Origin: Devosia submarina
Lineage (GTDB): Bacteria; Pseudomonadota; Alphaproteobacteria; Rhizobiales; Devosiaceae
DNA: 64,000 bases
Direction: 5' to 3'
Assembly: GCF_003056345.1 (NCBI RefSeq)
Contig: NZ_PYWB01000001.1
Span: 186,001 to 250,000, forward strand
Every line of letters starts with the position of its first letter. Within the stretch, counting starts at the first letter, position 1. Under the pieces are notes generated by a model. That model was not told where the DNA came from and did not search any database. It saw nothing but the letters and a program-made list of their open reading frames with translations. Position numbers and translations under genes: made by a program. Below are positions 9,747 to 63,829 of this stretch, piece by piece.

Positions 9747-9860
9747 ACCCCCACCTAACCTCCCCCTGTGAGGGGGAGGGACCGCTTAGTGAGTTACCTC
9801 TTATTGCGTCACTTGCACGAAGCCATTCCTCCCCCTCCCAGGGGGAGGTTAGGTGGGGGT
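9747..9860. repeat. Family C REPIN-like doublet, 114 bp with 19-bp terminal inverted repeats
   Basis: The ends ACCCCCACCTAACCTCCCC (9747-9765) and its reverse complement (9842-9860) are perfect inverted repeats. Each half is itself a hairpin of CCTCCCCC and GGGGGAGG. The central 40 bases are unrelated to those of the sister element at 52630-52743, which has the same length and ends. It lies upstream of the alpha-E gene. Confidence 0.85.
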
Positions 9861-9933
9861 CACACCGCTCCCCGGCTCCTGCCACAATGGTAACATCCGG
9901 TTCATCGCATGATCTCACAAGGCTCACCGGCCC

Positions 9934-10050
9934 CACCTCCCCCCTTGCGGGGGAGGCCAGGAGGGGGGTGCGATGCCCAAGCAAACCACCAGTATTCCCG
10001 CAAGCACCGCCCCATTCCTCCCCCTCCCAGGGGGAAGCTAGGTGGGGGTC
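9934..10050. repeat. Second family C inverted doublet
   Basis: A left half at 9934-9974 (CCTCCCCCCTTGCGGGGGAGG hairpin type) faces a right half at 10013-10050 of the AGGGGGAAGCTAGGTGGGGGT type. The halves come from different subtypes, so the pair is less symmetrical than its neighbour. Together with 9747-9860 it fills the gap between the alpha-E and ATP-grasp genes. Confidence 0.75.
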
Positions 10051-14387: not shown

Positions 14388-14562
14388 CGATGTCACCCCG
14401 GCCTCGAGCCGGGGCCCATCCCGAGATCCCGCGCCAGCCGCAAGGTTTCAAAACAGAGCACAGCGCATGGACCACCCGAACAAGTCGGGTGGTGACGCTC
14501 CCTGATAGCCCTGATGGTTGTTCAATCGTCATTGCCCGGCTCGTCCGGGCAATCCACCATTG
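14388..14562. repeat. Three family B palindromes with different stems
   Basis: The 436-base gap after the glucosidase holds no gene. Copies lie at 14388-14426 (stem CCCCGG/CCGGGG), 14470-14500 (inverted, stem ACCCGA/TCGGGT) and 14527-14562 (stem TTGCCCGG/CCGGGCAA). All share a GTCA or GTCATT flank next to the stem, while the stem sequence differs with compensating changes. Confidence 0.75.
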
Positions 14563-15862: not shown

Positions 15863-15905
15863 AAACTACTTCGGATTGAAATTACTGGTTTGGCGTACAT
15901 CGTGT

Positions 15906-15961
15906 CCCGCGCTCGATCTCACCCTCCCCCTTGCGGGGAGGGCAGGGTGGGGGTTCTCTCC
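15906..15961. repeat. Family C copy, left member of a perfect 56-bp direct repeat
   Basis: This 56-bp unit (from CCCGCGCTCGATCTCACCC to GGGTTCTCTCC) is identical base for base to 16355-16410. It contains the hairpin CCTCCCC/GGGGAGG and encodes the last residues and stop codon of the DUF559 gene on the minus strand. Confidence 0.9.
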
Positions 15962-16287
15962 TCCAACGCTAAAGCCAGGATCAGGTAAACCCCTTCGCCA
16001 TTCCGCATCACCTCGGCATTGGTGAACCGCAAGACCCGGTAGCCGCGCCTCATTAGATAGGCATCCCTCTCCCGGTCCTTTGCCAAACCTTCATCGGTGT
16101 AGTGCGTGTCTCCATCCACCTCCACAACCAGCTTGGCACCGTGGCAGGCAAAATCCACGATATACGGCCCTAGGCTCACCTGCTTGCGAAAATGATGCGC
16201 CTGCCGCCGCAGCGGTTCGATCAACCGCCAGAACCTGATCTCCGCCGACGTCGGGTTTTTCCGCAATTTCTGCGCCAGCGTCGCCAT
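15919..16287 (-). CDS. DUF559 endonuclease-domain protein, bracketed by repeats
   Basis: This 122-residue protein carries a DUF559 domain, a compact Vsr-like fold of the PD-(D/E)XK nuclease group. The helix TSAEIRFWRLIEPLRR, the strand YIVDFACHGAKLVVEVDGDTHY (Asp and Glu-x-Asp as candidate metal ligands) and the end RGYRVLRFTNAEVMRN are typical. The start ATG begins MATLAQKLRKNPT; upstream the frame stays open but only reads through a repeat. The final residues TPTLPSPQGGG and the stop codon lie inside a family C repeat. Identical 56-bp repeats flank the gene at 15906 and 16355, and an inverted copy begins 5 bases upstream of the start. A nicking or repeat-processing role is possible but unproven. 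Confidence 0.85.
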   Translation of the reverse strand: MATLAQKLRKNPTSAEIRFWRLIEPLRRQAHHFRKQVSLGPYIVDFACHGAKLVVEVDGDTHYTDEGLAKDRERDAYLMRRGYRVLRFTNAEVMRNGEGVYLILALALEERTPTLPSPQGGG

Positions 16288-16292
16288 CCCAC

Positions 16293-16402
16293 CCCCCACC
16301 CTGGCCCTCCCCGCAAGGGGGAGGGTGAACTTCGTGCTCGCACGAGGATGTTGCCCCGCGCTCGATCTCACCCTCCCCCTTGCGGGGAGGGCAGGGTGGG
16401 GG
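16293..16402. repeat. REPIN-like family C doublet upstream of the DUF559 gene
   Basis: An inverted half (CCCCCACCCTG at 16293-16303, hairpin to about 16328) faces a direct half ending CAGGGTGGGGG at 16392-16402. The pair spans about 110 bases, like the 114-bp doublets elsewhere. The right half is part of the 56-bp direct repeat 16355-16410 that matches 15906-15961. Confidence 0.85.
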
Positions 16403-16427
16403 TTCTCTCCACCCCCCAAGCCTCAGT

Positions 16428-38105: not shown

Positions 38106-38160
38106 TGATGTCGCAGTCGACACCCTCCCCCTTGCGGGGAGGGATCAAGGGTGGGGGTAG
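38106..38160. repeat. Family C copy between hisZ and hisG
   Basis: This is the standard short copy: AGTCGACACCCTCCCCC, then GCGGGGAGGGATCAAGGGTG and a GGGGT end. It occupies most of the 97-base hisZ-hisG gap, inside what should be one operon. Confidence 0.8.
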
Positions 38161-47515: not shown

Positions 47516-47562
47516 CACAGTCGACACCTCCCTCTTGCGGGGAGGGACCAAGGGAGGGGTTT
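47516..47562. repeat. Family C copy with a shortened end
   Basis: AGTCGACACCTCCCTCTTGC, then GGGGAGGGACCAAGGGAGG and a TTTTTG end. The 261-base gap it occupies holds no gene. Confidence 0.75.
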
Positions 47563-52629: not shown

Positions 52630-52743
52630 ACCCCCACCTAACCTCCCCCTCGAAGGGGGAGGAACTACACCGCGCAAGTGGCAATATCCCGCCACATCCA
52701 CAAACTTGTCCCTCCCCCTCCCAGGGGGAGGCTAGGTGGGGGT
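52630..52743. repeat. Family C REPIN-like doublet between ileS and lspA, 114 bp
   Basis: Terminal inverted repeats ACCCCCACCTAACCTCCCC (52630-52648) and GGGGAGGCTAGGTGGGGGT (52725-52743) match with one change. Size and ends equal the element at 9747-9860; the centre differs. Its right end lies 7 bases before the lspA start and supplies the GGTGGGGG that would serve as ribosome-binding site. Confidence 0.85.
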
Positions 52744-56701: not shown

Positions 56702-56750
56702 CAGTCGACACCCTCCCCCTTGCGGGGAGGGATCAAGGGTGGGGGTGGGC
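56702..56750. repeat. Family C copy between convergent rsmD and zur
   Basis: This is the standard short form, from GCAGTCGACACCCTCCCCC to the GGGTGGGGGT end, filling much of the 151-base gap. Confidence 0.8.
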
Positions 56751-59948: not shown

Positions 59949-59994
59949 CAGTCGACACCCTCCCCCTTGCGGGGAGGGATCAAGGGTGGGGGGC
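59949..59994. repeat. Family C copy after znuA
   Basis: This is the standard short form with the GGGTGGGGGGCGGTTGGCCC end subtype, shared with the copy at 63718. Confidence 0.8.
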
Positions 59995-63717: not shown

Positions 63718-63829
63718 CAGTCGACACCCTCCCCCTAGCGGGGAGGGATCAAGGGTGGGGGGCGGTTAGCCCGAATATGGGGGCTCTGGCTGCCCCTCCC
63801 ATCCTCCCCCGTCCAGGGGGAGGTGCGGT
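63718..63829. repeat. Family C copy and a further hairpin between cobW and cobN
   Basis: A standard copy at 63718-63764 (with CCCTAGCGGGG in place of CCTTGCGGGG) is followed by a half-copy hairpin CCTCCCCC/GGGGGAGG at 63800-63824. They fill much of the 289-base gap; the remaining 110 bases before cobN show no clear structure. Confidence 0.75.

Follow-up and report, generated by a model that had tools for sequence, protein, structure and literature searches.

Few kinds of repeat are commoner in bacterial genomes than dispersed palindromes. To our knowledge, the only enzyme tied to such palindromes is RAYT (TnpA-REP), the transposase of the REP/REPIN systems known as REPtrons. In Rickettsia, palindromic elements are inserted in frame in protein genes, and we know of no enzyme partner for them. 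Co-evolution of RAYT and REP has been stated (PMC8266576), and species with several families of GTAG palindromes are described as possessing repeat-specific REPtrons (PMC3733652). The latter source presents the CGTC repeats, found mostly in alpha-Proteobacteria, as not tied to transposase genes (PMC3733652), hence partnerless families are a recognised gap, though the repeats of the present study are of another kind. A search of titles and abstracts, with most subscription journals and bioRxiv outside its reach, retrieved no paper linking DUF559/COG2852 to palindromic repeats.

PD-(D/E)XK enzymes hydrolyse DNA and are not known to carry out strand transfer. The EDxHD homing endonuclease I-Bth0305I is described as having extended DNA-binding regions (PMC3943268), and a DUF559-containing gene has been placed in the EDxHD homing endonuclease family (PMC9403480). 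The Caulobacter protein VsrA (CCNA_02930) contains a DUF559 domain and has been connected with SOS induction and with a cytosine methyltransferase (PMC12907096). Legionella segments carrying a transposase and a DUF559 gene are reported as recombination hotspots (PMC12308824), and in a Deinococcus methylation mutant a DUF559 gene appears beside repair genes in an expression table (PMC6712171).

The window analysed here, a 64,000-nucleotide stretch of the Devosia submarina genome, harbors an intergenic DUF559 (PF04480) nuclease gene coding for 122 aa (15919..16287, minus strand; ATG start, TGA stop). A preceding sequence-only reading had assigned this gene to DUF559 and placed it between identical 56-bp repeats; both statements hold, as the profile match reaches E 1.4e-28 (99.3 bits vs. 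a cut-off of 20.6), and the left (15906..15961, plus strand) and right (16355..16410, plus strand) copies agree at 56 of 56 bases. Their match can be extended to 62 bases at 97% (15903-15964 and 16352-16413). An inverted copy (16294..16328, minus strand), 89% identical over 35 bases, is situated just 5' of the start codon; its second register extends to 16293, leaving the claimed five bases to the start codon at 16287. The stop codon (15919-15921) lies inside the left repeat, as had been stated, but it is preceded there by 13 complete codons rather than by 11. The hairpin cores of the left, inverted and right copies occupy 15922..15942 (plus), 16305..16325 (minus) and 16371..16391 (plus), respectively. 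The left copy has its tail towards the gene, whose open frame crosses the hairpin and stops directly after it. This copy pairs with the inverted one, their tails facing the gene, and the inverted and right copies form an outward-facing doublet. Read along the gene strand, the order is the outward-facing doublet, the start codon, the gene and the copy with its tail towards the gene.

Folded as single-stranded DNA, the inverted pair at 16294-16410 reaches -51 kcal/mol (z -9.3); a single 56-bp repeat folds no better than its shuffles (z -0.7). Neither a GTAG nor a CGTC tag is present on either strand of the 56-bp repeat. An Rfam identity for the repeats was rejected: there were only sub-threshold matches, 13 of 14 of them to microRNA models, which stemmed from the long inverted pair and are attributable to chance. 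For a defence function of the gene, PADLOC returned only weak partial matches (the best, DpdF, at 23 bits). From position 14527, the window contains a palindrome of another kind (CGTCATTGCCCGGCTCGTCCGGGCAATCC), similar to the CGTC repeats described in PMC3733652.

An AlphaFold2 model of the window protein (mean pLDDT 83.6) was compared with known structures by Foldseek. The best match was PDB 3hrl (the putative endonuclease-like protein NGO0050), which is also the closest by sequence (E 7e-37), followed by both chains of I-Bth0305I (PDB 3r3p; E 3e-5, TM 0.81 of the target) and, more weakly, by Vsr. The invariant residues of DUF559 include E, D, ExD and H; together with the model match, they give the window protein the catalytic fold of the EDxHD homing endonucleases. 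Judging by the model, the fold is PD-(D/E)XK of the EDxHD/Vsr-like kind. The protein does not belong to the Vsr family as defined by the model TIGR00632 (E 0.18, 12.1 bits vs. a cut-off of 97.85). The median dN/dS of 0.11 (24 pairs of 80-99% identity) indicates that the DUF559 gene is under purifying selection.

The hairpin core matches the window nine times with at most three mismatches (0 expected from 100 shuffles), and three of these matches are at the gene itself, so the earlier count of about 15 other places was loose. Dispersed copies on the plus strand are located at 38123..38143, 56711..56731 and 59958..59978 and, with one and two mismatches, at 63727..63747 and 47526..47546, respectively. 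A second hairpin type (CCTCCCCC..GGGGGAGG) has seven further sites in the window, e.g., three hairpins within 9759..9956 and two within 52642..52731 (no strand assigned); by strict patterns, there are seven hairpins of each type. In the whole genome, the core occurs 48 times with at most two mismatches vs. 0 for the reversed control pattern. A PF04480 search of this genome yielded two DUF559 genes, each with a different hairpin type. The second gene (locus L001) is flanked by the CCTCCCCC..GGGGGAGG hairpins, and just downstream of it, at about 1960-2095 of the locus, there is a remnant of its own 3' end with one more hairpin. Of three hairpin types characteristic of DUF559 clades that this genome lacks, 0 copies were counted.

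In the wider survey, a gene was regarded as bracketed if a segment scoring at least 15 (match +1, mismatch -2) was common to the 300 bp on both its sides, a threshold taking in any shared repeat, hairpin or not. In the genus, 47 of 61 genomes matched DUF559, with 0-9 copies each, truncated and stop-containing ones included. The genus set (loci L001, L002 and L033-L142) comprised 122 domain hits reduced to 117 distinct cores, of which 110 were full length and 109 had enough flank. Bracketing turned out to be the usual state of the homologues, in line with the sequence-only reading: it was found for 86 of these 109 genes vs. 4 of 261 control ORFs more than 1 kb away (21/441 for the control ORFs of loci L063-L142 at all distances). 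The shared segments contained both CCC and GGG runs in 80 of the 86 cases (6 lacked them), and CCC..GGG hairpins were present on both sides of 83/109 DUF559 genes vs. 5/261 controls. Twenty additional loci (L143-L162), kept outside the genus counts, mostly displayed the same flanks by eye, split or truncated genes included.

Beyond the genus, 70 Pseudomonadota loci (30 best matches plus 40 hand-picked over many genera) provided 69 full-length genes, 46 of which were bracketed vs. 2 of 84 controls; hairpins stood on both sides of 43/69, and 3/46 of the shared segments were without CCC or GGG runs. A scan of named genomes gave 578 confirmed candidates; the best 80 of these represented Pseudomonadota, Chlorobaculum, Chloroflexi, Pseudanabaena, deltaproteobacterial, Clostridia and other records, and 72 had enough flank. 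Among these best 80, 44/72 genes were bracketed (shifted controls: 9/406) and 37/72 had hairpins on both sides (6/406), with 10/44 shared segments devoid of CCC or GGG runs. Four loci from other bacteria (L286, L292, L305, L317) have DUF559 enclosed by another family of repeats (CCC..TTTG..AAAGGGGG). At this threshold, 23/109 genus genes, 23/69 phylum genes and, among the best 80 of the 578 named candidates, 28/72 genes remained unbracketed; two Haemophilus genes and several Mesorhizobium ones were not bracketed. Sixteen of the 23 unbracketed genus genes adjoin in the tree listing and, by eye, possess hairpins upstream and none of the CCC..GGG kind downstream.

In its anatomy, the unit resembles a REPIN: two elements in inverted orientation enclose the gene with their tails, and gene-free pairs are dispersed as well. 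An element of the ACCTCTCCC type consists of a hairpin, a second hairpin and a tail (GGTGAGGGGGCCTT). Across 50 distinct copies, the second hairpin varies in sequence and length, with its pairing kept: the mean stem is 4.88 bp vs. 2.54 in shuffled sequences (highest shuffle mean 3.0). Gene-free inverted pairs with facing tails, their starts separated by about 100 bp, were found in genomes G047, G058 and G036, and pairs facing apart in G055. At locus L063, the start codon directly follows one tail and the frame continues through the opposite element. More generally, an in-frame start separates the upstream hairpin from the domain in 97 of the 104 genus genes that have such a hairpin. A downstream hairpin is present in 88 genes; the open frame stops short of it in 34 of these, within it in 7 and past it in 47.

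In the protein tree, the clade is tracked both by the type of hairpin and by how far from the gene it lies. For 108 genus genes, protein identity correlated with the best hairpin identity at r 0.61, a value equalled or exceeded in 0 of 2000 permutations. With 630 syntenic pairs left out, the remaining 5148 non-syntenic pairs still gave r 0.51 (0/2000 permutations). A common hairpin at 90% identity or above was shared by 56% of the non-syntenic pairs with more than 65% protein identity and by 1% of those with less than 45%. Hence, a gene and its hairpin type remain associated also at unrelated locations.

The expectation that hairpin copy number would follow DUF559 was confirmed in 349 Pseudomonadota genomes, using the pattern CCTCTCCC-N2-8-GGGAGAGG, which had itself been chosen from hairpins beside DUF559 genes. 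At least five hairpins were present in 61 of 91 genomes with DUF559 vs. 14 of 258 without it, where positives were defined by E <= 1e-10 and 31 genomes with weaker matches counted as negative. The odds ratio was 35 (32 when stratified by family, p 1e-10), base composition being controlled only via the reversed pattern and this stratification; the reversed pattern itself gave mostly 0, at most 7 in a genome listed. The Y1_Tnp domain (PF01797) had no positive link with the hairpins in the same genomes (at least five hairpins in 35/192 with vs. 40/157 without). In the genus, it was found in 3 of 61 genomes, and a profile match was lacking in the genome under study and in 58/61 genus genomes.

Within the genus, the dependence of copy number on the cognate clade stood for one of the two types tested. 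It was assessed in 54 of 61 genomes, seven being dropped as less complete (including G040, which at a listed 90% could have been kept), with clade membership taken from the tree listing and G036 assigned by its flanks, which is partly circular. For type TCCCTCCCCCTTGTGGGGAGGGA, the median copy number was 24 in the 9 genomes possessing the clade vs. 2 in the 45 lacking it (p 1.9e-5); for type ACCTCTCCCTTTGGGGGAGAGGT, the medians were 10 and 2 in 9 and 45 genomes, with p only 0.053. Genome G042 has the cognate clade and 0 copies of ACCTCTCCCTTTGGGGGAGAGGT; G055, G032 and G027 carry 42, 47 and 21 copies, respectively, without DUF559. Type CCTCYCCCGYTTRCGGGRGAGG has few copies. Repeat-rich genomes without DUF559, which the sequence-only reading had named as evidence against the pairing, thus exist, but as a minority: the three genus genomes and 6 of 59 Pseudomonadota genomes with at least 10 hairpins (51 of the 59 have DUF559 and 2 a weak match). 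Among the hairpin-rich genomes of the phylum, G200, G114, G322 and G259 had no DUF559 match.

Sites with and without the unit were compared at two places. The gene cobN was matched in 47/61 genus genomes, and one linker in it was classed by eye at 30 loci: 11 had no insert, 13 a repeat of the types described here, 2 another repeat and 4 (L253, L255, L277, L280) a DUF559 unit, the frame remaining open and read through. One and the same linker contains, in frame, both DUF559 units and several palindromic repeat types; by coordinates, DUF559 lies in the cobN frame in G042 and G002, too. The unit of L253 (repeat, inverted repeat with gene, repeat) reproduces the window arrangement, and L257 and L258 have one repeat only. 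In L277, a tandem repeat array precedes the gene. A further dispersed repeat (CCTCATGGTGAGCCTGTCGAACCACG and its variants) was noticed at these same two places, in the intergenic stretches of L366, L371 and L381 and in cobN of L259 and L274.

The window site is occupied by DUF559 in the genome under study (G000) and in G014, G049, G057 and G015; it carries a single hairpin and no gene in L376 and L380, and it is empty in L377 and L383, where the neighbor genes are 27 and 13 bp apart, respectively. Sites having a repeat but no gene, proposed earlier as something to look for in close strains, hence exist at both places, though in other species. The inverted ends of the element are present, and the sites are too diverged for a target duplication to be read. 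On Azospirillum plasmids, no within-species empty site was found: the whole region recurs in 7 records, the one searched with included, so the association is partly vertical. In one strain of Sphingomonas parapaucimobilis, three units are situated in or next to conserved gene pairs: between sufB and sufC, between transhydrogenase genes and, at the pair yqeY-dnaG, before dnaG (L398, L399, L400).

Collectively, the flanking and the copy numbers support the analogy with RAYT and REP from which the sequence-only reading had proposed DUF559 as the partner of the palindromes. They suggest that hairpin repeats of a widespread class have their regular partner in DUF559, as REP has in RAYT, and the gene-hairpin partnership is well supported. 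As to its cause, the enzyme either moves the hairpins or lives on them; the former is favoured because the hairpins are clade-specific and no other mover is evident. The best reading, to which we assign a probability of about 60%, is a REPtron-like system where a dedicated hydrolytic DUF559 nuclease replaces RAYT. Against it, the filled and empty sites belong to different species, not strains, and no movement was observed. Also counting against it are the hairpin-rich genomes lacking DUF559, the weak clade link of type ACCTCTCCCTTTGGGGGAGAGGT, the unbracketed genes, the shared segments devoid of CCC or GGG runs, the vertical share of the association in Azospirillum and the hydrolytic chemistry of PD-(D/E)XK enzymes.

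In such a system, the autonomous unit would consist of two hairpin elements in inverted orientation whose tails enclose the nuclease gene, the start codon of the gene placed just inside the upstream tail and its frame often continuing into the downstream element. Elements of the same kind, alone or as gene-free inverted pairs, are dispersed genome-wide, and each DUF559 clade goes with its own hairpin type. From the fold and the conserved pairing, we infer that the nuclease mobilises the palindromes by hairpin cutting and host-dependent copying. The DUF559 protein would bind its cognate hairpin and nick or cut it, the substrate probably being a folded single strand, e.g., in the lagging-strand template. 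Since strand rejoining is not to be expected of a hydrolytic PD-(D/E)XK enzyme alone, the host would have to supply that step; through its repair or template switching, the element could be copied to new sites or from one existing copy to another, and the gene could be included or not. It is conceivable, at slightly less than even odds, that this represents a class of mobile DNA extending over many phyla, where hairpins are spread by structure-specific nicking and host repair through a single PD-(D/E)XK hydrolase whose gene they enclose.

The opposite direction of cause deserves the most attention among the alternatives, although we consider it unlikely. Another agent might spread the palindromes, and DUF559, as a homing-type passenger, would cut them and have its gene copied in by double-strand-break repair, the repeats serving as homologous arms. 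This would explain the occurrence of DUF559 where palindromes are common and agrees with the position of the gene between repeat copies, including the direct repeats around the window gene and the cobN unit of L253. The kinship with homing enzymes is apparent from the second and third best structure matches, which are the two chains of I-Bth0305I, and from the DUF559-containing gene in the EDxHD homing family (PMC9403480); the Legionella hotspots with transposase and DUF559 segments (PMC12308824) would fit as well. However, no other mobiliser is apparent (Y1_Tnp, the one searched for, is absent from 58/61 genus genomes and uncorrelated with the hairpins in the phylum), and the tracking of protein clade by hairpin type at non-syntenic places is not obviously expected of a passenger. 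RAYT itself was rejected as the mover in view of the rarity of Y1_Tnp in the genus and the lack of a positive link in the 349 Pseudomonadota genomes. For all the REP/REPIN-like architecture, it is very improbable that the palindromes belong to the classical REPs, owe their movement to a RAYT encoded elsewhere in the genome and are only incidentally linked with DUF559: PF01797 is absent from the genome under study and from 58/61 of the genus, it has no positive link in the 349 genomes, and the 56-bp repeat bears neither a GTAG nor a CGTC tag.

A host function is improbable, if less so than the classical REPs. DUF559 could be a Vsr-like repair enzyme, with the hairpins acting as terminators or regulators of its gene and the dispersed copies functionally unrelated to it; the similarity of fold to Vsr, the link of VsrA, a DUF559 protein, to a methyltransferase and SOS (PMC12907096) and the DUF559 gene tabled beside repair genes in Deinococcus (PMC6712171) point in this direction. 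Still, the window protein matches TIGR00632 only at E 0.18, and a repair role leaves much unexplained: the hairpin abundance following DUF559, the clade-specific hairpins, the 0-9 copies per genome with truncated ones among them, and the units inside cobN and between genes of the suf and transhydrogenase operons. The sequences are of low complexity and G+C-rich, and GC-rich hairpins, being common in such genomes, might simply have been over-read. This is scarcely credible, given that the reversed-pattern controls were 0 (the core and three further hairpin types) or mostly 0 (phylum) and that the gene and position controls were low.

If the conceived class of mobile DNA extending over many phyla exists, REP mobility would have been solved a second time and independently, and many of the G+C-rich palindromic repeats that lack a known partner in Pseudomonadota, a large share of them, would be explained. 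A partnership of DUF559 with palindromes would provide a testable role for a large gene family that is uncharacterised, the substrate of each enzyme being predictable from its own flanks, and it would offer a hydrolytic route of repeat mobility to be compared with the HUH one.

Among characterised nucleases, I-Bth0305I has the closest fold; it is listed as a mobile intron protein, unlike the protein considered here, which comprises little beyond its catalytic part and has dispersed hairpins as partners. PDB 3hrl (NGO0050) belongs to the same family as the window protein but is listed only as putative. Vsr and VsrA are related to the window protein in fold. The main text of the VsrA paper is free of the terms 'palindrom', 'hairpin' and 'transposon' (PMC12907096). 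For vsr itself, no association with palindromes is known to us. The Legionella segments are likewise repeated and DUF559-bearing, but they have a transposase within the segment, and palindromes are unmentioned in the passages on them (PMC12308824). The in-frame palindromic inserts of Rickettsia differ in that an insert of the present kind can carry a nuclease gene, as in cobN. The closest likeness is to the REP/REPIN systems with RAYT: in both, palindromes flank the enzyme gene, have many dispersed copies and form inverted doublets, and enzyme and palindrome co-vary, here as the r of 0.61 and, for non-syntenic pairs, 0.51. The enzyme, however, is by its fold a PD-(D/E)XK-type hydrolase and that of the REPtron is an HUH tyrosine transposase, and the 56-bp repeat is free of the GTAG/CGTC tag. 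The system thus works like a REPtron, yet it is not one by enzyme or tag.
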